From assembly GCA_002715965.1 (NCBI GenBank), contig PBAL01000086.1, positions 1 through 64,000 of the forward strand: a stretch of DNA of 64,000 nt. Direction: 5' to 3'. A program made the translations under genes and the position numbers. This DNA comes from Verrucomicrobiales bacterium (lineage in GTDB: Bacteria; Verrucomicrobiota; Verrucomicrobiia; Limisphaerales; JAYPXF01). This document shows, piece by piece, positions 5,641 through 52,029 of this stretch. Position 1 is the first letter of the stretch, and every line of letters starts with the position of its first letter. The notes beneath the pieces are model-generated. The model did not search any database. It had not been told where the DNA came from and worked only from the letters and a program-made list of their open reading frames with translations.

Positions 5641-7360
5641 TCAGCGCCGATTGTAGTAAGACGAAGACCCGGGGTTGTAGCGGAACGTCGAGTTGGTTGC
5701 CGGCTGTCGATACCCAACCGGTTGGGGCGGACCCAAGGGCTGCGGGACGGAAGTGATCGGCCTCGGAGGCGACATCGGCCGAGGGCCGCTTCTCGCCTGA
5801 TTGGGAAGAAAGAAGCCGCTCGATCGTGCCTGTTGAAGGGCGATGTTTTGTGGAATGGGCCCGCCATTTCGTGGAGTGCTTGGGTTGCGAACGGGTTGAG
5901 TAGCCGCGCTCACGTTTGTTCCGTTAATGATGTTATTGATGATGATCGGCGCGGTGCGTTGTGGTCGGGTGGTGTAACCCGTTACGACCGGACGACCCGT
6001 GCTGTGATCAACAACCGGACGACCGGCGATAACCGTTCCATCCGGTGTGCTGGCTGGAACGAGCACTGTTCGGTTCGTTCCATTCTGCGTGATAACAGCA
6101 GGTTTCACCGGAGCGATATGCTGGATGCTAGGGCGAAAGACGACGGTGTGCCCCCCCCTCCTGCCGACTGAGACCGAATTGCCGAAACGAATTGACCGGG
6201 GAGATACGGATGACGCCGAGCGTGATCGGCTGGAGAGAAAGTTGCCTGACACGCTGAATGGAGAAACCGGGGTTACTGATGCTGTTCCCCGTGTTGATGA
6301 CATTGTTGATGACGGTGGTCCGTTGAAAAAACGGACGGACCAGATTGGGGGCGAGAATGTGACCGAAAAGTTGCGGATGAAAGACGCGGCGATAAGGAAC
6401 GAAGCTGTAATGCGCCAAGCCAAGCCCGAAGGCGTAATTCAATCCGACCAGTTGTCCGCGGAAGGAAAGGCCAGCACGTGTGAAGTTGGCTCCGGGCGGC
6501 AATGGAGCCCAGCCCAGATGACGTGCTTCGGAACGAAAGGTCACCCAACTCGGCCCCCAAGTCGTGTCCGGAACCCAATACCAGCCGAGCTTAAGATCGT
6601 GCCCCCAGCGACCGTAGTGAAACACCGCCCAACCCCAGGGTTCATCGGAATGCCAATACCAGCCCTGGTCCGTGGACAGCCACCGGCCATTGTGTGCGTA
6701 GGGCCGCCAGTCACGAATTTGCGCCAACACGTTTGGTTGCCAGATCCAGCCGAGTGTCGCGTGTTGCAGCCAGCTGCCGTGCGGGTTCAACGCAGTGTGA
6801 AACGGTTGAACCTGTGGCGGAAGATTCACAGCCGGAGCCGGACGGTTCCGCGGTTGATTCTGCAAGGCGGTCCGTGCGCGTTGCTCGGCCAGTTCCGCTG
6901 CGAATTGATTTGATTGCGCAGTCAGCAACGCTCGAGTCAGTGCAAGCTCGCGCGATTGCGCCCGGATGCGCGCACGCGCCTCGGCGTTCGCCACGGCCTG
7001 TTGACGCGTCACTTGATTGCTGCGGCTGCGCAACTGCGTGTCGCGCTGGAGGATCGCAAAGATGATGGCTTGGGAAACACCGGCTTCCTTCATGACGAGA
7101 ATCTCTTCCGTCAGAATATTGAAGCGATTGGTGGCCAGGGCAATGTGGGATTCGATGACACCTTGCGCCAAACCCGATTCAGTCATCGCGACAATTGCTT
7201 CGAGCGGTTCGCGCAGTGGAGGACGCGACGCAGGTTGTTCTGCTGGGGCGGCTGCGTGAACTTGATTCGTCTCCGGTGCTGAGACATTGGTTTCAGAACG
7301 ATCCGCGCATCCCGCCATCACCAAGACGGGGAGAACCAAAAAAATGCGACGGAAGTTCAT
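5641..7360 (-). pseudogene. DUF6600 (YXWGXW-type) lipoprotein, frameshifted in a C8 tract
   Basis: The N-terminal 400 residues begin with a lipoprotein signal (MNFRRIFLVLPVLVMAGC, lipid Cys 18). An alanine/glutamine/arginine-rich helical section follows, then the DUF6600 tryptophan-rich repeats (W-I-W-Q-P, W-R-P-Y, W-Y-W-H-S-D-E-P-W-G-W, F-H-Y-G-R-W, W-Y-W-V-P-D-T-x-W-G-P-S-W-V). The frame fails at a run of eight C (6151-6158 on the plus strand). With seven, translation passes from ...GLSRQEGG straight into ...HTVVFRPS and on through a Thr/Pro/Asn-rich tail to SSYYNRR at 5641. The protein is probably on the outer cell envelope; its role is unknown. The tract could be a sequencing error, a phase-variable site, or a true lesion. 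Confidence 0.75.
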
Positions 7361-7470
7361 GGCCGTTCGAACAGTAGGTCATTTGACCGGCTTCGGCCAT
7401 CAGGTATTCGCGCGAGGAGACAAGCGAATAAATTTGACGATTCATCGACGCCTCACGTCCAATCCGGCGC

Positions 7471-8328
7471 ATGAAACTCTCCAAGTTGTTCCTCTGTGTC
7501 GCAGCTGTGCTCGCGCTGACGATGTCCATTTCCTCGCATGCAGCTGTGAAACCCCTTCGTGTTCTGCTCATCACCGGCGGCTGTTGCCATGACTACACAA
7601 AGCAGAAGGACATCTTGAAGAAGGGATTGGAAGCGCGCGCCCACGTAAAGGTCACGCACGCTCATTCGCCTGACAAAAGCACCTCTCCACCCTTGCCAAT
7701 TCTCGGCAATCCCGACTACGGCAAGGGTTACGACGTCATCATCCATGATGAATGCGCCGCAAAGCAGGCGGACAAGAAAATCGTTCAAGGCGTGCTCACT
7801 CCGCACAAGAACGGCATCCCCGGGGTGAACCTCCATTGTGCGATGCACAGTTATCGTGTGGGAGATCATCGCGCGCCGACGAAGCCGGGGAGCGAGGACA
7901 GCATGTGGTTTGACTATCTTGGATTGCAGTCCAGCGGCCACGGCCCCAAGGCAGCAATGGAGATCACATTCACCGCCCAGGATCATCCGATCACCGCCGG
8001 AATGAAACCGTGGACCACCGGCCCGGAGGAACTCTACAACAACGTGCAGGTGCTTCCGGGCACCAAGGCACTGGCCAGTGCGGTGCAGATGCAGAAACCG
8101 CGCGTGAAGAGAAACAAGAAAGGCAAGGCAAAGACACCGGCAGCAGCAGCGAAGGCCAAGCGCGCCGAGGCGGTTGTCGTTTGGGTGAACGAATACAAGG
8201 GAACACGAGTATTCAGCACCTCAGTGGGACACTACAACGAGACCGTTGAAGATGGGCGTTATCTGGATTTGGTGACGCGGGGACTGCTTTGGTCGTGCAA
8301 GAAGTTGAACCAGGGATACCTAAAGTAG
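7471..8328 (+). CDS. Secreted ThuA-like domain protein
   Basis: This 285-residue protein has a signal peptide (residues 1-24, ending SSHAAV). The class-I glutamine-amidotransferase-like ThuA fold follows: P-L-R-V-L-L-I-T-G-G-C-C-H-D-Y, then Y-D-V-I-I-H-D-E-C, then G-V-N-L-H-C-A-M-H-S-Y-R, and the end V-F-S-T-S-V-G-H-Y-N-E-T. A Lys/Ala-rich insert sits at about residues 210-233. ThuA-domain proteins in PVC bacteria are common, exported and associated with sugar catabolism, but their reaction is not established. It stands alone on the plus strand between two minus-strand genes; no operon partner is visible. Confidence 0.9.
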   Translation: MKLSKLFLCVAAVLALTMSISSHAAVKPLRVLLITGGCCHDYTKQKDILKKGLEARAHVKVTHAHSPDKSTSPPLPILGNPDYGKGYDVIIHDECAAKQADKKIVQGVLTPHKNGIPGVNLHCAMHSYRVGDHRAPTKPGSEDSMWFDYLGLQSSGHGPKAAMEITFTAQDHPITAGMKPWTTGPEELYNNVQVLPGTKALASAVQMQKPRVKRNKKGKAKTPAAAAKAKRAEAVVVWVNEYKGTRVFSTSVGHYNETVEDGRYLDLVTRGLLWSCKKLNQGYLK

Positions 8329-8355
8329 CAAACCGCGCTCGGCTCATTTCTATTG

Positions 8356-8417
8356 GGAGCGCCGGACACTGGCCGGCATCGCCCTCCAATCCAATGCCAA
8401 GCAATGCTTGGCGCTCC
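8356..8417. repeat. Short palindromic copy of the GGAGCGCC repeat family
   Basis: This 62-bp element begins GGAGCGCCGGACACTGGCCG and ends with GCAATGCTTGGCGCTCC. The two ~24-base ends are inverted copies of the outer half of the 51-bp unit seen at 37246-37296, 37362-37412 and 45863-45913. It fills the gap between the convergent ThuA-like and DUF1287 genes and may also act as a terminator-like hairpin. Confidence 0.6.
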
Positions 8418-8437
8418 AATGAATTTCCTCGTCCCTG

Positions 8438-9226
8438 TCAATCGGGAATAGTCAGCGTCATTCCTTTGCGAATCACATCCGGATTCGGAATCAGATCGCG
8501 ATTGGCCTCGTGTATGCGACGCCACTGGCTGGATTTTCCGTAAAACAGCTTGGCGATTCCCGATAGTGTTCCTCCATCATTACGTGATCCGACTTGGTAG
8601 ATCCGCACTGCATTGTTGGATGGAGGAGCAACCCTTTCTGGCGTATCACTCAATCGATAGTGCCCCGTCAGCGGAAACCAATACAGACGGTCCTCCTCTT
8701 CCGTTCCAAACCCGATGTTGTGAATGATCAATGGAACGCCTTTGTCCGTCTTTCGATCACTCACGATCATGATATGCGGCAGTTTCCTTGCGACAGTACA
8801 GGTCACAATATCCCCCGGCAGAAAACTGGCGACGTTTGTGTTGATGTTTAGCCGGTAACCCTTCCGTTCGAAATACGCTTTCAGATTGGGAACACGCCGG
8901 TGATCGATATTCTTGTCCGGTCGACTTAAACCCCAGTTGGGCGGGTAGACTGAAAAGTTTTGCTTCATGTCCTCGTGCACCTGCTTCTGCAAATCAATCG
9001 ACATCCCTTTGCGCAGGGCCCGAACAACCACATCGGTGCACACACCGACTTCAATCGGGGGATCTCCGTTTGGATAACTCAACGAACGGTAACTCGAATC
9101 GTAACTTGTGGTCTTCCCAATTTGCGTTTTAGCCGCGTCCACGATCTTCTGGCCGACATCAACTGCAGACATCCGGGTGCTGAAGAGCAGTAGGAGGCAA
9201 AGGCAAACCGATTGCGTGTGGTGCAT
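8438..9226 (-). CDS. DUF1287 protein with C-terminal LysM domain
   Basis: This is a 262-residue protein. The start at 9226 (MHHTQSVCLCLLLLFSTRMS) gives a signal peptide; a longer frame upstream has no such character. DUF1287 spans about residues 25-190 and includes G-V-C-T-D-V-V-V-R-A, V-H-E-D-M, N-I-D-H-R-R-V-P-N-L and P-H-I-M-I-V-S-D. This fold is NlpC/P60-like, and Cys and His in these motifs would fit a catalytic pair, so a periplasmic peptidoglycan-cleaving role is likely but unproven. The last ~50 residues form a LysM module (G-G-T-L-S-G-I-A-K-L-F-Y-G...I-H-E-A-N-R-D-L-I-P-N-P), which binds peptidoglycan. Most DUF1287 proteins I know of lack a LysM. The gene is divergent from speA. Confidence 0.85.
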   Translation of the reverse strand: MHHTQSVCLCLLLLFSTRMSAVDVGQKIVDAAKTQIGKTTSYDSSYRSLSYPNGDPPIEVGVCTDVVVRALRKGMSIDLQKQVHEDMKQNFSVYPPNWGLSRPDKNIDHRRVPNLKAYFERKGYRLNINTNVASFLPGDIVTCTVARKLPHIMIVSDRKTDKGVPLIIHNIGFGTEEEDRLYWFPLTGHYRLSDTPERVAPPSNNAVRIYQVGSRNDGGTLSGIAKLFYGKSSQWRRIHEANRDLIPNPDVIRKGMTLTIPD

Positions 9227-9341
9227 GCAATGTTGGACGGGAAACGACTGCGAATGGTTCCAACAAACTCGTCTTTTTCTTTCCCGCCGTATTGAATTCC
9301 TTGTTACGGTTCTTATAGTGCGCGCGTTTCTGGCACCACGA

Positions 9342-11294
9342 ATGAACGGGCATGCAGGCAATGGCGAATGGTCGATCGATGATGCGCGGAATGTTTACAA
9401 CATCCGGCGCTGGGGATCCGATTACTTCGAGATCAATGACGCAGGCCATGTCGTTTGCCGCCCGGAGCAGAAGCAGGAGAGTGAAGTTGACCTGACTGAT
9501 ATCGTTGCCGAAGCCAGGCAACGCGGACTGAAATTCCCCCTGCTGGTTCGGTTCCAGGACGTTCTTCGGCACCGTGTGCATTCGTTGAACCTGGCGTTTC
9601 GGCAGGCGATCAAGGAGTACGAATACACCGGGATCTACCGTGGAGTCTTCCCGGTGAAGGTGAACCAGTTGCGTGAAGTGGTGGAAGAGATCCTTGATGC
9701 GGGTCACGAGTTCGACTTCGGCCTGGAGGTTGGCAGCAAACCCGAACTCTTTGCCGGGCTGGCGCTGCCTGAATCCGAGAACTGCCTGGTGGTGTGCAAT
9801 GGCTACAAGGATCCGTCCTTCATCCACATTGCGTTGATGGGCGTGAAACTCGGCCGGGAAGTGATCATGGTCGTGGAGAAATTGGAGGAGTTGAGGCAGA
9901 TCATCCGGGTTTCCAAAGAGGTTGGCGTGCGACCCAAGATCGGAATCCGCGCGCGGCTCTTGTGCAAGGGGGTCGGCAAATGGGCGGACAGTGCGGGGGA
10001 AGACGCCAAGTTTGGTCTTTCAACGGCAGACATGGTCGCAGCCGCTGACATTTTGACGGAGGAAGGCATGGCGGACTGTTTCCAGTTGCTCCACTTCCAC
10101 ATTGGTTCGCAAGTGCCCGACATTCTCACTGTGAAGAAGGCTGTCCAGGAAGCCACCCGCATCTATGCCAAGCTGCGAAAGATGAATTTCCCGATCCAAT
10201 ACATGGATTGCGGAGGCGGATTGGGCGTGGATTACGATGGAAGCCGCGCGGTTTTCGAAAGTTCGGTGAACTACACGCTCCAGGAGTACGCAAACGACAT
10301 CGTTTATTACATCGCCGATGTGTGCAACGCGGAGGAAGTTCCGCATCCGGACATCATCACCGAGAGTGGGCGGGCGATTGTCGCGCATCATGCGGTGTTG
10401 CTGGTGGAGGTATTCGGCTCGATTGAAAAGAATCAAGACACCTCGCATCTGGAATTTGGCGCGGATGATTCGCACATCACCAAGGAACTGCTGGAGATTC
10501 GCGACAACATCGAGTCCTTGAACAAGCTTGAAGCCTTCCACGACGCAAAGGAACGCAAGGACGACGCGTTCCAGATGTTCATGGTCGGCGTACTTGGTCT
10601 CGAAGAGAAGGCGAAGATCGAAACGCTTTACTGGCAGATCAGCCAGGCAGTTGTGCGCTCTTACCGGGGCCAGAAATACATCCCGGAAGAAATCCGCGAA
10701 CTGGGTCACAGCCTCGGCGATCAATACCTCTGCAACTTCTCCGTTTTTCAATCACTCCTGGATCATTGGGCGCTCGAACATCTGTTTCCGATTCTGCCGA
10801 TTCAACGTCTGAACGAACGCCCCGACCGCGAAACCACTCTCGTGGACATCACCTGTGATTCCGACGGGACCATCAACAAGTTCATCGATCTTGAAGACGT
10901 GAGTGACACGCTCCTTCTGCATCACCTCAATGGAGTCGCGGACGGCAAGAACGGCTCCCAATACCACCTCGGCCTGTTTCTTATCGGCGCCTATCAGGAC
11001 ATCATGGGCGACCTTCACAACTTGTTCGGACGGGTGAACGAAATCCACGTATTTGTCGATCCGGAAGAATCGAAAGGTTACTACATCGAAGAAGTCATTC
11101 AGGGCACGACTATCGGTCGCGCCCTGGAATACGTGCAATATGATCCGCGTGAACTTAAGCGGCAGATGAAACTGCAGGTCGACCGGGCGGTGAAAGCGAA
11201 TCGACTCCGGCCTTCGGAAGGCATGCAACTGCTCGGCGAATACGAAAACGGACTGGGCACCTACACCTACCTGGATTTTGGAGAAGCAAGCTGA
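9342..11294 (+). CDS. speA: Biosynthetic arginine decarboxylase
   Basis: This 650-residue protein is close to the usual SpeA length. It converts arginine to agmatine plus CO2, the first step of polyamine synthesis by the agmatine route, using PLP and Mg2+. The start is placed at MNGHAGNGEWSIDDARNVYN (9342) because homology begins there; the frame upstream has no SpeA features. The PLP lysine is K106 in Y-R-G-V-F-P-V-K-V-N-Q, and the alanine-racemase-type barrel continues with L-L-H-F-H-I-G-S-Q and D-C-G-G-G-L-G-V-D. The C-terminal domain includes V-D-I-T-C-D-S-D-G. A membrane protein gene overlaps its 3' end by 17 bases, so the two are translationally coupled. No agmatinase or agmatine deiminase is in the window. 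Confidence 0.95.
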   Translation: MNGHAGNGEWSIDDARNVYNIRRWGSDYFEINDAGHVVCRPEQKQESEVDLTDIVAEARQRGLKFPLLVRFQDVLRHRVHSLNLAFRQAIKEYEYTGIYRGVFPVKVNQLREVVEEILDAGHEFDFGLEVGSKPELFAGLALPESENCLVVCNGYKDPSFIHIALMGVKLGREVIMVVEKLEELRQIIRVSKEVGVRPKIGIRARLLCKGVGKWADSAGEDAKFGLSTADMVAAADILTEEGMADCFQLLHFHIGSQVPDILTVKKAVQEATRIYAKLRKMNFPIQYMDCGGGLGVDYDGSRAVFESSVNYTLQEYANDIVYYIADVCNAEEVPHPDIITESGRAIVAHHAVLLVEVFGSIEKNQDTSHLEFGADDSHITKELLEIRDNIESLNKLEAFHDAKERKDDAFQMFMVGVLGLEEKAKIETLYWQISQAVVRSYRGQKYIPEEIRELGHSLGDQYLCNFSVFQSLLDHWALEHLFPILPIQRLNERPDRETTLVDITCDSDGTINKFIDLEDVSDTLLLHHLNGVADGKNGSQYHLGLFLIGAYQDIMGDLHNLFGRVNEIHVFVDPEESKGYYIEEVIQGTTIGRALEYVQYDPRELKRQMKLQVDRAVKANRLRPSEGMQLLGEYENGLGTYTYLDFGEAS

Positions 11295-39704: not shown

Positions 39705-41051
39705 TCACTCCGACAACACTTTCCGAATGGCAGCTTTGAACGGCTCCTCCGAACCGCGGGCAACCCAGCACCACCCGTTCAGGTTTGAGTCGTTCTCTTC
39801 CCAGTGCATTTCCAAGGGAATGTAACCCGTTCCCGATTCGCCATAACCCGCAACCATCAAGAAATTGTTCGGGCGGAGGGACTGCGCATAGAGCTGATAC
39901 TCAACGTAAGACTCCCCTGGGAGCAGCAGGAACGCGGCCTTGCCAAAATCGATCACCGGCAAATCGATGGGCTGCTTTCTGACTTTCATGCGTTCCAGCC
40001 AACTGAGGCCTAGAGCCGCCCGGCTCTGGTACTTCCGATCGTTCACTGTCTTCAGTTTGCGCAACTGATCCTCCCGGGAATATCCATCCGATTCGCGTGG
40101 CTTTAACACCAATGGCACGGATCGAAATTCCATTTCGGTCAAGGGTGATCGTTTGGTGTCTTTCCAGGCGGCCACCATGCCAGCCAGCAGCCGGCGCATC
40201 AGCACAGGACGATTTGGAGGGTCGCCTTTGTTGTACTTTCCAGCGGTCACATTGCCGGCCGCACCGGAGAAATAGATCTGCGTCGAATCCGGCACTTCCT
40301 TCTGAAGTTCCGCGCGAGCGTAGCCGGGGAAGTCCGGATTCACCTTGCCCGTTCGGTAGAAACTCATCGGATGCGTCGCGTAGGAATAGAGCACGGCAAT
40401 CGCCTTGTCCCCGTTCCAGAAACTCAACGCTTTCACGAACGGATCAATGACTCCTTCGGGAGCTTGCCGCGCAAAGACGTTCTTCGTTGCGCTGCCGCGG
40501 TCATAACGCGGCTTGCCGTTGGGACCGATGTAACGTCGGTTCGAGGCGATTTTCTCCACCTTCGCCTGTCCCATGCCGAGGTGAGTGATCGGCTGGGTGC
40601 TTGCCATAGCTCTGCGAACGGCCTGGCCTACATCCGCGACGACCCGGTTATGAAACGTGGCGTCGACGATGTTGCTCATGATGCCATGCTCCTCGAGGAT
40701 CTCTTGTGCCCGCAAATCCGTAAGAGGGGTGTCGTGCTGGTGAACGCAACTGAGCAAAACCCGTTCGCGAGTCGTGCCGGCAGCCTCGGCGAGTCCATCC
40801 CGCCATTGGTCATAGGCATCGTTGCGAATCTCACACCAGTCGACAGACACAACGACGATCGGCTGCTTATCACCCGTGAGCACGATTCCCTTTGCCCAAA
40901 GCTTCGCCTCGATAGACCGGGCCGGCGGCATGCTGCTGGCCAGAAGCGGATGTCCGATCGGCGGGGTTACATCTGCTTCGATGGTGGCGACACGATACTC
41001 AGCGCCGGACGCAACGGAAGCTACAGCAATGAACAGACTAAGACGGATCAT
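39705..41051 (-). CDS. Neutral/alkaline ceramidase-like secreted hydrolase
   Basis: This 448-residue protein has a signal peptide (residues 1-17, MIRLSLFIAVASVASGA). The ceramidase N-domain starts I-E-A-D-V-T-P-P-I-G and carries the zinc motif V-H-Q-H-D-T-P (H104, H106; consensus T-H-T-H-x-G-P, here with Q and D changes). A further His lies in A-T-H-P-M-S-F. Neutral ceramidases hydrolyse the amide bond of ceramide; most bacterial homologues in PVC genomes act on unknown amides. It is the last gene of a minus-strand operon after the two small envelope proteins (22-base gap). A second homologue forms the N-terminus of the giant protein at 47455. Confidence 0.85.
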   Translation of the reverse strand: MIRLSLFIAVASVASGAEYRVATIEADVTPPIGHPLLASSMPPARSIEAKLWAKGIVLTGDKQPIVVVSVDWCEIRNDAYDQWRDGLAEAAGTTRERVLLSCVHQHDTPLTDLRAQEILEEHGIMSNIVDATFHNRVVADVGQAVRRAMASTQPITHLGMGQAKVEKIASNRRYIGPNGKPRYDRGSATKNVFARQAPEGVIDPFVKALSFWNGDKAIAVLYSYATHPMSFYRTGKVNPDFPGYARAELQKEVPDSTQIYFSGAAGNVTAGKYNKGDPPNRPVLMRRLLAGMVAAWKDTKRSPLTEMEFRSVPLVLKPRESDGYSREDQLRKLKTVNDRKYQSRAALGLSWLERMKVRKQPIDLPVIDFGKAAFLLLPGESYVEYQLYAQSLRPNNFLMVAGYGESGTGYIPLEMHWEENDSNLNGWCWVARGSEEPFKAAIRKVLSE

Positions 41052-41073
41052 GTATCCGCGAATACTCCAGACC

Positions 41074-41697
41074 TTAAAACGGATCGTCCAGCATCTTGAT
41101 CGCCTGATCGAGGACCTCTTCGGCTTCCTTGTATTTGGCAGCATTGATCAAGGGCTGAAATTTGGCAGTAACCTTGGAAATATTCTCCGGATTGACGCCG
41201 ATCTCGACCATCTCCCGCATCCCCTTCTTCAGTTTCTCGATCTTGGCCTGGAGACGCTTCTCGACCTCTTCCGACGGACCGATCTTTTTGGGATTAAAGT
41301 CCTTCATCAATTCACGAAGCTGCTTTCGTTGCTCGACGCTCAGCTGGTTCTTGACCCGGATCAGCAATTTCAGGTTCGCCATCTTCAACGCGTTTTCGAC
41401 TTCGAAGAGCCGCTTGATCTGCTTCTCCGCTTCTTCCTCACCGGTGATGGTTTTGTCCAGGAGTCGTCGCAATTTCGCCATCTCAACATTCAGCCGATAC
41501 TTGTCTTCCCTCGCCGAATCCTTGGCCGTCGTGACTTCTGACACGATGAATTCCCGTTGCTCATCGGTAAGGCCGATCTTGTCGCCGAAGTAAATGACGA
41601 TTTCCGGCTGGAAGACCTGTTCCGGATACGAACTGGCAGCGATGCACCACAACGGTGCGGCGAGGAGGAATGCGAGGAGGGTGGCTTTCGTCTTCAT
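41074..41697 (-). CDS. Periplasmic Spy/CpxP-like helical protein
   Basis: This 207-residue protein has a signal peptide (MKTKATLLAFLLAAPLWCIA). It is almost entirely helical and charged, with paired repeats like the LTxxQ motif of Spy/CpxP: I-G-L-T-D-E-Q-R-E-F-I and L-S-V-E-Q-R-K-Q-L-R-E-L. Such proteins act as chaperones or metal sensors in the periplasm; here the heptad pattern suggests a coiled-coil dimer. Its start overlaps the upstream membrane gene by 4 bases (ATGA, 41694-41697), so the pair is co-translated. Confidence 0.75.
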   Translation of the reverse strand: MKTKATLLAFLLAAPLWCIAASSYPEQVFQPEIVIYFGDKIGLTDEQREFIVSEVTTAKDSAREDKYRLNVEMAKLRRLLDKTITGEEEAEKQIKRLFEVENALKMANLKLLIRVKNQLSVEQRKQLRELMKDFNPKKIGPSEEVEKRLQAKIEKLKKGMREMVEIGVNPENISKVTAKFQPLINAAKYKEAEEVLDQAIKMLDDPF

Positions 41698-47354: not shown

Positions 47355-47454
47355 AAGCAGCATCGACTGCCAGTCGATGCATGCGAAGCGCATTCTGCGA
47401 GAAGTCGCACGCTCACTCGCTTGCATTCAAACCCCAGCGGCAGATAATCCACCA

Positions 47455-50400
47455 ATGGATTTCCCAAGAAGAGCACTCGCAGTCCTGCTGGTCATTCTCT
47501 CGGTTGCGCAGTCCAAAGCAGCCAACCCAATCCACGCCGGTGTCGCGCGCACAGACATCACTCCCACCGAACCCATTCGATTGAACGGCTATGGTGGCCG
47601 CAACAAGCCTTCAGAAGGAGTCGCTCAAGACCTCTGGGCCAAGGCGCTCGCAATTGGTGAAGACCAACCAGTGGTCATCATCACCGCAGACCTGATCGGA
47701 GTGCCGGACTGGATCACCACGGAGGTCGCAAAACGCATTTCCAAAGAAATCCGTTTTGATCCATCTCGACTCGCGATCTGCGCAACGCACACCCATACCG
47801 GCCCAACGATCAAAGGCGTGCTGGAAAACATCTTCATGAGCGACATTCCCGCAGATCAGATGAAGGTGATCACCGATTACTCAAACGCGCTCGTCGGCCA
47901 ACTCGCCAAGATCGCGTTGGAAGCATTGCGCAATCGCAAACCTGCCGTGATCGAATGGGGACAGGGCAAGGTGGATTTCGCAATCAATCGTCGCACATTG
48001 AAGAACGGCGTGTGGAGCGGCTTTGGCGAAGTTCCCGATGGTCCGGTGGATCACTCTCTTCCACTGATGCGGATCGCAATCGATGGAAAAACCAGGGCGC
48101 TGCTCGTCAACTACGCATGCCACTGCACGACCTTGGGTGGAAACTTCAACCAGATCCACGGCGACTGGGCGGGCCGGGCTGCCGAGTTGATCGAACAGAA
48201 CCATCCTGGCGCAAGCGCCCTCATCGCAATTGGCTGTGGAGCCGATGCCAATCCCAAGGCACGCGGCAAATTCGAATCCATCGAACCACACGCTCAATCA
48301 CTGGCCGCAGAAGTCGAACGGCTTCTAAAGACCCAGCTCAAACCCATCTCGCAAACTCCAAATACGGATCTTCACCGGATCGAACTCCCCTTCGATCCCA
48401 TGCCCTCGAAGGGCGTGTGGCAGAAACGGGCCGATGAGAACAGCCGACTTTCCTACTACGCCAAAAAGATGGTCAAGCGGATCGAATCCGGCACGAAGAT
48501 CCGGGAGCCGCTCTCCTATCCCATTCAGACCTGGACCTTCGGCGACGACCTCGCCATGGTGTTCCTTCCCGGCGAAGTCGTGGTCGACTACAGCCTGCGT
48601 CTCAAGAAGATCTTCGATTCCAAGCGCATCTGGATCAACGCCTACGCCAATGACATCCCATGCTACATCGCCTCACGTCGCCTCTACGACGAAGGCGGCT
48701 ACGAAGTCGATAAATCGATGTGGTACTACGATCAGGGGCGTCGTCTTTCCAAGGACACCGAAGAACTTGTTCTCGACGAAGTGACCCGACAACTGCCGCA
48801 CGAATTCTACTCTCCCGGAACGCTGCGCCAAATGCCTGCCCCAGTTTCCAAGGAAGCTGCGGCCGAAACGATCAAGGTTCGGCCCGGCATGAAGGTCGAA
48901 CTGGTCGCAGCCGAACCGCTCACCATGGATCCCATCGACGTTGCCTGGGGACCGGATGGAAGAATGTGGGTCGTCGAAATGGCCGATTATCCCAACGGCA
49001 TTGATGACATGGGCGCGTCAGGAGGACGCGTGCGATTTCTCGAAGACGATAACGGGGATGGAATCTACGATCGCTCCACACTGTTCCTCGACAAGCTCAA
49101 TTTCCCCAGCAGTGTCGCACCCTGGCGGGATGGCGTCTTGATCACGGCCGCGCCAGACATTCTCTTCGCCCGTGATACGAACGGTGATGGCCGAGCCGAC
49201 TCGGTTGAGAAACTCTTCTCCGGTTTTGGCGAAGGCAATCAGCAACACCGAGTAAATGGACTCCAATGGGGCCTGGACAACTGGATTCACTGCGCCAATG
49301 GCGACAGCAACGGCAAGATCAAGTCGCACAAGACCGGCAAGGTCGTCGATATCAACGGAATGGACTTCCGCATCAAGCCCGACACCGGCGAAATCGAAAC
49401 CGAGTTCGGCCGCACCCAACATGGCAAGAGCCGCGACGACGTGGGCAATTGGTTCGGCTGTAACAACTCCTGGCCCGGCTGGCATTTCGCCCTGGAAGAC
49501 CGCTTCCTGAAACGCAATCCACACGTCCGCTATCCGTCCCCCAAGGTCTACCTGCAAACACCGCCAAGCGCCGGTCCCGTGTATCCCGTCAGCCGCACGC
49601 TCAATCGCCTCAACGATTACTCCAAGGCCAATCGTTTCACCTCAGCCTGTGGATTCGTCATCTACCGTGACGATTTCCTCGGCACCAATTTCCAGGGAAA
49701 TTCCTTCGTCTGCGAACCGGTCCACAATCTTGTGCGCCGCGAGATCCTGACACCGAAAGGCGCGACCTTCAGCAGCCGCCAACCTGACGATGAAAAGGGC
49801 AAGGAGTTCTTCGCCTCCACCGACAATTGGTCGCGCCCCACCTCCGTCCGCACCGGCCCCGACGGCGCACTTTATGTCGTGGACATGTATCGTTTTCTCA
49901 TCGAGCACCCGCAATGGGTTCCCGCCGACTGGCAGCGCAAACTCAAGCTCCGCGACGGTCACGACAAAGGCCGCATCTACCGGGTGTACCCCGATGGCAA
50001 ACGCCCCCGACCCTTTACGCGCCTGGACAAGATGAACACCAGGCAATTGGTGAAGTCACTGGAAACTCCCAACGGCTGGCAACGTGACATGGCTCACCAA
50101 TTACTGCTCTGGCAAAAACATGCCGAATCATCGAAAGCTCTTGCGACATTGCTCAAGGAATCCACCAACGCATTGGCGCGAATGCACGCGCTCAGCATTC
50201 TCGACGGACAGAACGCGCTCGCCAGATCGCACCTGGAATCCGGCGTCGAAGATGATGACTGGCGCGTCCGAAGAATCACCGCTCGCCTGACTTCACGTTT
50301 CCCCGGCTTCCTCAATGACGAACGAAACGTATTCCGACTGGCGCGCACCAGGAATCTGCAGATCGCGATCCAGGGTGCCTACGCACTTCGAGAGTCGGGA

Positions 50401-52029
50401 ATAGATGACCTGGACTGGCTTGGGTCTATCGCATTCGCAGGCGCAACCGATGATTTCATTGCCGCTGCATTCCTGTCTTCCATGACAAGTTCATGGGACC
50501 CCACCTATCTTGTCCCACTCCCACGACACGGCGGGAATCTACTCTTTGCCGGGTTCCTGGGCACGGCAATCGGGGAAGGAAACATTAAGGCACTCCGCCA
50601 AGCTGCAAATCTCTGCACTCCTTACAAGGACGACAATTACAATCACATGAAGATCTTCTTTGAGGAATTGAAACGCAGGAACACCTCGATGAAGAAACTC
50701 GGATTGGATACTGATCCCGGTGTCTCGAAAACCTTTCGCGAAGCACTGTTCAAGGCCTTAAAAGTCGCTGAAGATCCGTCTCAATCTGATGAGCGACGGT
50801 CCAATGCGATTCGCATCCTCGGCATGGCCAATCCGCCATTCGATGTTTCCGCACAACTGACGGCGCTCCTCACACCCCGCAACTCCGATCGCATGCATAC
50901 GGAAGTCCTCACCGCGTTGACACACGCCCGAGGCCGCGTCTTGCCGGACGCCTTGTTCAGCCGATGGAATGGACTATCGCCATCGACCCGCCGGGCGGGC
51001 ATTTCCCACCTCGTGCGCAGATCAGATTGGTCCACGCGATTGATTGAAGAAGCTCGAGACAATCCTGCCGTTCGCCGAAGCATCAGTCCGCCTCAGCAAA
51101 TTCAGTTGAAGAATCACCGCAGTCAGACACTTCGCGAAGCAGCGCGGACGCTATTCGGCCTCACCTCAACCTCTGCCCGATCAGATCTCATCGCCCAGTT
51201 TCAACCCGCATTGAATCTGAGGGGTAGTGCGGAAAACGGCCGGGCACTGTTCGCCCTCGCCTGCTCGGTCTGCCACAAGATTGGTGATATTGGGAACGCT
51301 GTCGGCCCCGATCTGACCGCGTTAACCGACCGATCCAAACCAGCGATGCTCGCGGCCATCATCGATCCCAATCGCGCAGTCGAAGACAAGTACCTCAGCT
51401 ACACAATCGCCACCTCCACTGGAGCGGAAATCGCGGGACTCCTGGCTGAGGAATCGAGCACGGCGGTTCGACTGGTCGATGCCACCGGCTCATCGCATTC
51501 GATCGCGCGAGACCAGATCAAGACGATGAACAGTTCCGGCATGTCTCTTATGCCCGAGGGGCTGGAATCAGCCTTCAACCACCGGCAAATGGCGGACCTT
51601 CTTGCGTATCTCAAGGGCATTGGCACGCCTCAGTACATCAGCGCGGAATCGGACGGATCGATTCGACTCATGGTATCGAATGGTTCCGCATCACGTCCTG
51701 AAATCCGGGGTGACGGCGCGTTTACCGGAATCACCACCAACGACAAAGTCAGTTGGCAGGTGGAGCAGATGCCTGCCGGTGGCTACGACATCATGGCTTT
51801 CTCGGCAGTGGATAGGACCTACTGGGGGAAACCGTTTCATCTGCAGGTAGGAACTCGAACGGCGGATGGAACATTCGAATCCACCGGTGGCCTCCATCGC
51901 TTCCGCAGCCGGAAATTCGGGAATATCCGTTTGGACGCACCACAATCAAAGACGACCATCACGCTCAGGCACAGCGCGACCAATGTGCAGATTGCGATCA
52001 AGGAGATCGTGCTGATTCCAAACGAGTAG
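47455..52029 (+). CDS. Giant ceramidase-like / PVC propeller / HEAT / cytochrome c fusion protein
   Basis: This is a 1524-residue exported protein (signal peptide 1-23, M-D-F-P-R-R-A-L-A-V-L-L-V-I-L-S). Residues ~25-440 are a ceramidase-like domain with the full zinc motif A-T-H-T-H-T-G-P (H112, H114) and A-C-H-C-T-T-L. Residues ~480-830 are the PVC-type glucose-sorbosone-dehydrogenase-like propeller (W-G-P-D-G-R-M-W-V-V-E-M-A-D-Y-P, R-V-N-G-L-Q-W-G-L-D, G-P-D-G-A-L-Y-V-V-D-M-Y). A HEAT-like helical section (~880-1230) is followed by cytochrome c with C1270-S-V-C1273-H1274 and a C-terminal beta domain. Two enzyme types that are usually separate genes are joined in one uninterrupted frame. It probably couples amide or glycan hydrolysis to oxidation in the periplasm; the substrate is unknown. 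Confidence 0.9.
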   Translation: MDFPRRALAVLLVILSVAQSKAANPIHAGVARTDITPTEPIRLNGYGGRNKPSEGVAQDLWAKALAIGEDQPVVIITADLIGVPDWITTEVAKRISKEIRFDPSRLAICATHTHTGPTIKGVLENIFMSDIPADQMKVITDYSNALVGQLAKIALEALRNRKPAVIEWGQGKVDFAINRRTLKNGVWSGFGEVPDGPVDHSLPLMRIAIDGKTRALLVNYACHCTTLGGNFNQIHGDWAGRAAELIEQNHPGASALIAIGCGADANPKARGKFESIEPHAQSLAAEVERLLKTQLKPISQTPNTDLHRIELPFDPMPSKGVWQKRADENSRLSYYAKKMVKRIESGTKIREPLSYPIQTWTFGDDLAMVFLPGEVVVDYSLRLKKIFDSKRIWINAYANDIPCYIASRRLYDEGGYEVDKSMWYYDQGRRLSKDTEELVLDEVTRQLPHEFYSPGTLRQMPAPVSKEAAAETIKVRPGMKVELVAAEPLTMDPIDVAWGPDGRMWVVEMADYPNGIDDMGASGGRVRFLEDDNGDGIYDRSTLFLDKLNFPSSVAPWRDGVLITAAPDILFARDTNGDGRADSVEKLFSGFGEGNQQHRVNGLQWGLDNWIHCANGDSNGKIKSHKTGKVVDINGMDFRIKPDTGEIETEFGRTQHGKSRDDVGNWFGCNNSWPGWHFALEDRFLKRNPHVRYPSPKVYLQTPPSAGPVYPVSRTLNRLNDYSKANRFTSACGFVIYRDDFLGTNFQGNSFVCEPVHNLVRREILTPKGATFSSRQPDDEKGKEFFASTDNWSRPTSVRTGPDGALYVVDMYRFLIEHPQWVPADWQRKLKLRDGHDKGRIYRVYPDGKRPRPFTRLDKMNTRQLVKSLETPNGWQRDMAHQLLLWQKHAESSKALATLLKESTNALARMHALSILDGQNALARSHLESGVEDDDWRVRRITARLTSRFPGFLNDERNVFRLARTRNLQIAIQGAYALRESGIDDLDWLGSIAFAGATDDFIAAAFLSSMTSSWDPTYLVPLPRHGGNLLFAGFLGTAIGEGNIKALRQAANLCTPYKDDNYNHMKIFFEELKRRNTSMKKLGLDTDPGVSKTFREALFKALKVAEDPSQSDERRSNAIRILGMANPPFDVSAQLTALLTPRNSDRMHTEVLTALTHARGRVLPDALFSRWNGLSPSTRRAGISHLVRRSDWSTRLIEEARDNPAVRRSISPPQQIQLKNHRSQTLREAARTLFGLTSTSARSDLIAQFQPALNLRGSAENGRALFALACSVCHKIGDIGNAVGPDLTALTDRSKPAMLAAIIDPNRAVEDKYLSYTIATSTGAEIAGLLAEESSTAVRLVDATGSSHSIARDQIKTMNSSGMSLMPEGLESAFNHRQMADLLAYLKGIGTPQYISAESDGSIRLMVSNGSASRPEIRGDGAFTGITTNDKVSWQVEQMPAGGYDIMAFSAVDRTYWGKPFHLQVGTRTADGTFESTGGLHRFRSRKFGNIRLDAPQSKTTITLRHSATNVQIAIKEIVLIPNE

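Follow-up and report, generated by a model that had tools for sequence, protein, structure and literature searches.

A ceramidase-like zinc hydrolase joined to a PVC propeller–cytochrome c protein: a conserved fusion in a bacterial order and a candidate glycan-processing enzyme

We examined if one long reading frame from a Verrucomicrobiales bacterium encodes a single genuine protein and, if so, what work a zinc hydrolase, a propeller and a heme domain might do together in one chain. Coordinates refer to the window, i.e., the whole 64,000-nucleotide stretch of DNA that was analysed. The frame is open from 47455 to a stop codon at 52027-52029. With a second in-frame ATG, at 47377, as its start the protein would be 26 residues longer; the start at 47455 places a stretch judged by eye to be signal-peptide-like, MDFPRRALAVLLVILSVAQSKA, at the N-terminus. 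The features of the gene are as follows.

47455..52029, + strand: complete fusion gene, 1524 aa plus stop, one open frame
47455..47520, + strand: signal-peptide-like N-terminus, residues 1-22 (by eye: RR, hydrophobic run, small residues)
47536..48789, + strand: ceramidase-like Zn hydrolase domain, residues 28-445 (PF04734; neutral ceramidases 4wgk and 2zws; Foldseek)
47788..47796, + strand: HTH of THTHTGP, Zn ligand region (H112, H114), aligned with H97/H99 of 2zws
48121..48123, + strand: H223, predicted second Zn ligand, aligned with H204 of 2zws
48574..48576, + strand: E374 of a PGE motif, probable third Zn ligand (from invariance; equivalence to Pseudomonas Glu411 is by motif order only)
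48664..48666, + strand: Y404, predicted fourth Zn ligand, aligned with Y448 of 2zws in a weak local stretch
48847..49992, + strand: PVC propeller DUF7133/TIGR02604, residues 465 to about 846 (Pfam, NCBIfam, GSDH profile, Foldseek)
49246..49248, + strand: H598, aligned by profile with the catalytic-base His of GSDH-family dehydrogenases
50032..51189, + strand: HEAT-like helical solenoid, residues ~860-1245 (sub-threshold HEAT_2, alphaRep profile matches, all-helical model)
51223..51615, + strand: cytochrome c domain TIGR02603, residues 1257-1387 (NCBIfam; Kustd1711 homology)
51262..51276, + strand: heme c attachment motif CSVCH (CxxCH), residues 1270-1274
51550..51552, + strand: M1366, predicted distal heme ligand, aligned with distal Met292 of Kustd1711
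51625..52026, + strand: C-terminal beta domain with a CBM6/CBM35-like fold, residues 1391-1524 (Foldseek)

Pfam returned Ceramidase_alk at 66.6 bits (cut-off 32.1), DUF7133 at 544.6 bits, Cytochrom_C at 29.2 bits (cut-off 21.3) and a sub-threshold HEAT_2 at 15.4 bits; NCBIfam returned TIGR02604 at 274.1 bits (cut-off 122.2) and TIGR02603 at 122.7 bits (cut-off 68.15). The Ceramidase_alk match spans residues 28-253, and relatives align on to ~445. AlphaFold models the HEAT region as helices, and the profile of the fusions matched designed HEAT-like alphaRep structures there; the structure models were of modest confidence (pLDDT 62 and 69). The first-pass annotation, made from the DNA letters, had described one uninterrupted frame with a Zn motif, a propeller, a helical region, CSVCH and a C-terminal beta domain, and the frame, the family matches and the models bear this out. 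Chance resemblance is excluded because domain E-values were as low as 1e-163 and the domain order recurs in more than 30 other genomes.

That recurrence also decides if the join is real. Separate relatives of both halves are common, as would be seen if two genes had been run together by a lost stop codon or a misassembly; such an artefact is ruled out, its probability being negligible, since the same join is present in more than 30 independent assemblies from two phyla, with the catalytic residues intact in both halves. The possibility that homologues are always two genes, raised in the first-pass annotation, thus did not apply. Nor is the fusion unique to one genome: the window's genome carries a second full copy (G000:C87:144063-148181; 39% identical), a genome of the same family has a whole-length relative that is 56% identical (L024), a Verrucomicrobiales MAG has another at 44% (L141), and there are ~30 other whole-length relatives. 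A search for proteins holding both the ceramidase domain and the PVC propeller/cytochrome found a ceramidase-through-propeller match in one frame in 35 of the 196 genomes of the order, in 20 family groups (counted from search rows, leaving out the partial matches G053 and G056); a Planctomycetota MAG (L142) has it as well, placing the fusion in two phyla. In a separate 289-genome sample of the phylum, the window's own genome alone passed E 1e-220. The window's genome also has an EUB338-III probe site, a hallmark of Verrucomicrobia, in keeping with its placement there. Domain maps of ~32 fusions gave a single domain order with short linkers of roughly 8-33 residues, and mean column identity among fusions was 68% for the propeller vs 63% for the Zn domain. 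The fusion is a genuine, conserved architecture and not an accident. The expectation of a one-off new architecture was not upheld, given this spread and the general habit of joining described below; no named family spanning ceramidase, propeller and cytochrome was found in Pfam, NCBIfam or the searchable literature, and as far as these sources go the conserved architecture has no name.

The propeller tree united the window protein with L024 and L141 (100/98) and placed these three with Planctomycetota propellers of other architecture (98/88); the other 31 fusions form a separate group (100/97). The same three proteins were again one clade in the ceramidase tree (98/90), so both halves of the window clade were inherited together. 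Two separate fusion events would explain these trees; a single clade of fusions was not rejected by the AU test (p 0.15-0.18). The window lineage has His at residue 598 and the CBM-like tail (a tail also found in L027 and L029), and the larger lineage has Ala at 598.

The N-terminal domain resembles neutral/alkaline ceramidases (PF04734; Pseudomonas 2zws, human 4wgk) in fold and in its Zn-binding His/His/Tyr positions; its profile matched both structures, and the best Foldseek match was 2zws (E 4.5e-17). The THTHTGP motif lies at residues 111-117, and all 32 fusions compared share H112, H114, H223, E374 and Y404; we take H97, H204 and Y448 of the Pseudomonas neutral ceramidase to be its Zn ligands. 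Position 265, in the motif of what is presumably the catalytic Ser (Ser274 of the Pseudomonas enzyme), is Ala in the window protein and Ala, Ser or Gln among the fusions, the HMMER alignment ending before it. The fusion also differs from ceramidases in having a propeller where these have their own C-terminal region, and it scored 19.5 bits vs a cut-off of 1200 with the ceramidase equivalog NF041649. With this shortfall 'ceramidase' is a fold label; ceramide hydrolysis as such is unlikely, and an amidase or esterase acting on some other acyl substrate seems likelier. Of the proposed ceramidase-like hydrolase, the fold and metal site held.

The propeller is truly, if remotely, related to the PQQ sugar dehydrogenases and has a six-bladed GSDH-type fold. 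DUF7133 matched the GSDH family PF07995 by hhalign (probability 98, E 5.7e-14, using a 31-row GSDH profile), and the modest-confidence model matched the PQQ sugar dehydrogenases 2ism, 5min, 2g8s and 6jt5 in Foldseek, with HHIP also among the matches; the propeller profile matched no solved structure when compared by sequence. Thus the fusions are like the PQQ sugar dehydrogenases (GSDH PF07995, sGDH, Asd, AA12) in propeller fold, in remote profile homology and in the column of His598, and differ in features of the active site. Of 34 fusions, the window protein, L024 and L141 have His at residue 598 and the other 31 have Ala; opposite the PQQ-binding Arg-Asn stand R653-T654, which are not conserved among relatives. 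(The roles of the catalytic-base His and of Arg-Asn are presumed to be as in sGDH.) D608, D790 and D810 are nearly universal in the family.

No PqqC scored above cut-off in the window's genome or in any of the 35 fusion-bearing genomes; it did so in five of the 196 genomes of the order, none of them fusion-bearing, so the PqqC test works. In the PqqE search all 14 controls matched too. GSDH-type genes are common in the order (30 of 40 genomes) though PqqC is rare (5/196), and the order may hold PQQ users that are not makers, or GSDH-type proteins with another cofactor. The lack of PqqC is by itself weak evidence, because GSDH genes are common in the order and PQQ from outside could serve; the propeller cofactor is probably not self-made PQQ. 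A canonical PQQ enzyme was set aside, with Arg-Asn missing and no PqqC in fusion-bearing genomes, and with Ala598 in most fusions the architecture cannot have sGDH-type oxidation as its general function. The oxidising propeller that had been proposed stands as to its dehydrogenase-like fold and not as to the PQQ pair, the His (lost in most fusions) or PqqC.

The heme site proposed from CSVCH is complete, distal Met included. C1270, C1273 and H1274 were present in all 30 fusions covering the site, and M1366 was kept in 30 of 31. The domain is homologous to the C-terminal heme domain of the diheme cytochrome Kustd1711 (PDB 7zs0, E 1.3e-21), a protein that has neither hydrolase nor propeller; two solved Met292 mutants differ from Kustd1711 at exactly the position aligned with M1366, confirming the alignment. 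Met292 is the distal heme ligand of Kustd1711, whose heme domain has potentials of ~+350 mV with Ca (PMC11791136). The tail (residues 1391-1524) had no match in Pfam when searched alone; its nearest solved folds are CBM6/CBM35 (Foldseek 2cdo/2cdp/2vzp/2w1w, target TM 0.61-0.68). Relatives of the tail occur in L024, L027, L029 and L141, and a weak Golvesin_C match in that of L027 agrees with a beta-sandwich. Cry-toxin and karyopherin Foldseek matches of the second model were rejected as solenoid plus jelly-roll look-alikes (query TM <=0.2).

The first-pass annotation had the halves down as normally separate genes, and they mostly are: in the window's genome alone, some twelve or more ceramidase-like genes and many PVC propeller genes stand on their own. 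Some of these are neighbours. In L027 (Planctomycetota) a propeller–HEAT–cytochrome–tail gene is followed ~107 bases on by a ceramidase-like gene on the same strand; in L032 a ceramidase-like gene precedes a propeller-cytochrome gene; and in the window's genome (L073, C20) a DUF1028-GSDH-cytochrome gene (5900-11122) directly adjoins a ceramidase-like gene, a pairing which resembles the fusion but is built from a different propeller family. The neighbouring separate forms and the joined form agree with a functional link. A check for conserved neighbours of the fusion itself gave no substrate hint: none was common to more than 4 of 22 loci, and the most shared were DUF1501/PSCyt/sulfatase genes, which are common in these genomes anyway.

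Residues 465-1387 match the PVC-type heme-binding CxxCH proteins (TIGR02604 + HEAT + TIGR02603; DUF7133) in the same domain order. The window protein has, in addition, a complete ceramidase-like hydrolase before this set, and members of its clade have the CBM-like tail after it. Elsewhere in the window's genome the propeller is joined to GDSL lipase/esterase, lectin-like, F5/8 and DUF6807 domains, and propeller-HEAT-cytochrome proteins of Planctomycetota have FG-GAP repeats in front (L030:6111-11303, L031:1-5100, L027:6048-11294), with a weak polysaccharide-deacetylase match as well in L030 and L031. The fusion is thus one case of a general habit, in which GDSL, DUF6807, DUF1028 and polysaccharide-deacetylase-like domains are joined to propeller-cytochrome proteins, and the window protein belongs to a mix-and-match class in which a hydrolase comes first, then the propeller and lastly an electron carrier. 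A GDSL-propeller protein of the window's genome (L067:447-5081, C8) ends in plastocyanin/azurin instead of the cytochrome c of its relatives, so that one electron carrier seems to have been exchanged for another. The Planctomycete-specific cytochrome (PSCyt1-3/PSD) proteins share the PVC habit of joining cytochrome c to other domains; they belong to different families (DUF1549/DUF1553) and are neighbours of some fusions, not the same protein, and have been suggested to act on carbohydrates (PMC5615132). The one tested homologue is Lac161_ORF7 (AGW45552), a beta-galactosidase from a Chthoniobacter-like cosmid which was purified and hydrolysed lactose with a Km of 1.8 mM (PMC5342196). It is given the same TIGR02604-HEAT-cytochrome set, the likeness being by the authors' annotation and not by sequence, and no ceramidase domain is reported (PMC5342196).

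What, then, might the protein do? Our tentative answer, which falls somewhat short of probable, is a modular enzyme for glycan processing, secreted and probably periplasmic, which has two catalytic sites and brings its own electron carrier, deacylation being followed by oxidation in the propeller. The N-terminal Zn domain would use a metal-bound water to hydrolyse an amide- or ester-linked acyl group of a substrate that contains sugar; the propeller, with His at the dehydrogenase catalytic-base position, would oxidise the exposed sugar; electrons would pass to the c-type heme (His/Met ligated, its potential expected to be high) and from there to a respiratory acceptor; and the CBM-like tail would hold the substrate while the HEAT solenoid set the spacing. 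For this glycan enzyme speak the retention of the Zn-site residues, CxxCH and distal Met, with both ends of the protein intact; the kinship of the propeller with sugar dehydrogenases, H598 included; the CBM-like tail; the ceramidase-like genes next to propeller-cytochrome genes in L027, L032 and L073; the plastocyanin/azurin of L067, which is expected if the C-terminal end is an electron carrier; and the GDSL, DUF6807, lectin-like and deacetylase-like partners of the propeller, all fitting glycan work. Against it stand Ala598 in most fusions, the missing PQQ Arg-Asn, the lack of PqqC in fusion-bearing genomes, the lack of shared neighbours that hint at a substrate, the weak models, and the lactose hydrolysis reported for Lac161_ORF7, which supports a sugar substrate and questions oxidation (PMC5342196). 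The mechanism as a whole is plausible but not established, and the channelling of an amide or glycan product to the propeller, put forward in the first-pass annotation, is speculative. A stronger form, in which a serine-independent Zn deacylase is followed by oxidation in a PQQ-independent GSDH-derived propeller that passes electrons straight to its own heme, is a long shot; if true, both its redox cofactor arrangement and its coupling of deacylation to oxidation would be new chemistry, spread across two phyla.

The lactase report also bears on the reading in which the propeller is a glycoside hydrolase or lyase, so that deacylation would be paired with cleavage of a glycosidic bond, the heme being structural, regulatory or vestigial. 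The three nearly universal Asp residues, set beside a dehydrogenase His that is not universal, point the same way, and we regard this reading as unlikely but worth taking seriously. Essentially every fusion retains the full heme site with its distal Met, and plastocyanin substitutes for cytochrome in L067, both of which argue for redox work; the lactase result comes from a single study, in the available text of which we found no heme-content test (PMC5342196). The varied N-terminal partners of the propeller, and the fact that ceramidase-like and propeller genes lie mostly apart and are only sometimes neighbours, would suit domains that serve unrelated substrates, with the fusion giving co-secretion and equal dosage and no hand-over between active sites. 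A join kept over 20 families with short linkers, and the joint inheritance of the halves in the window clade (CER 98/90, PROP 100/98), make this decidedly unlikely. Loss of the His in most fusions and of the Arg-Asn, together with the HHIP match, could instead mean that the propeller is an inactive platform for binding, like that of Hedgehog-interacting protein, which has the same fold, leaving the Zn hydrolase, heme and tail alone with tasks; this is very improbable given that conservation of the propeller equals or exceeds that of the Zn domain and that it has many invariant polar residues.

PVC genomes carry dozens of propeller–cytochrome proteins each, and the fusion is a testable clue to their role: a propeller attached to a hydrolase of recognisable kind, and in the window's lineage also to a tail that resembles sugar-binding modules, hints at hydrolysis plus redox on glycans outside the cytoplasm. 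The window-type His598 vs the Ala598 of the larger clade offers a natural test of the propeller as a redox enzyme.

Some smaller observations were made on related genes. An 1848 aa protein of the window's genome (L065:2449-7992, C7) has ~890 residues before its propeller that gave no Pfam match at E 0.001. The window itself holds a separate ceramidase-like gene of 480 aa at 39708-41147 (-), ~6 kb from the fusion (PF04734, 36.5 bits), whose protein is only ~21% identical to the fusion N-domain. In two related genomes a shorter ceramidase-like frame, which may represent a second copy, immediately adjoins the fusion gene (L061:3-938, L062:3448-4383).
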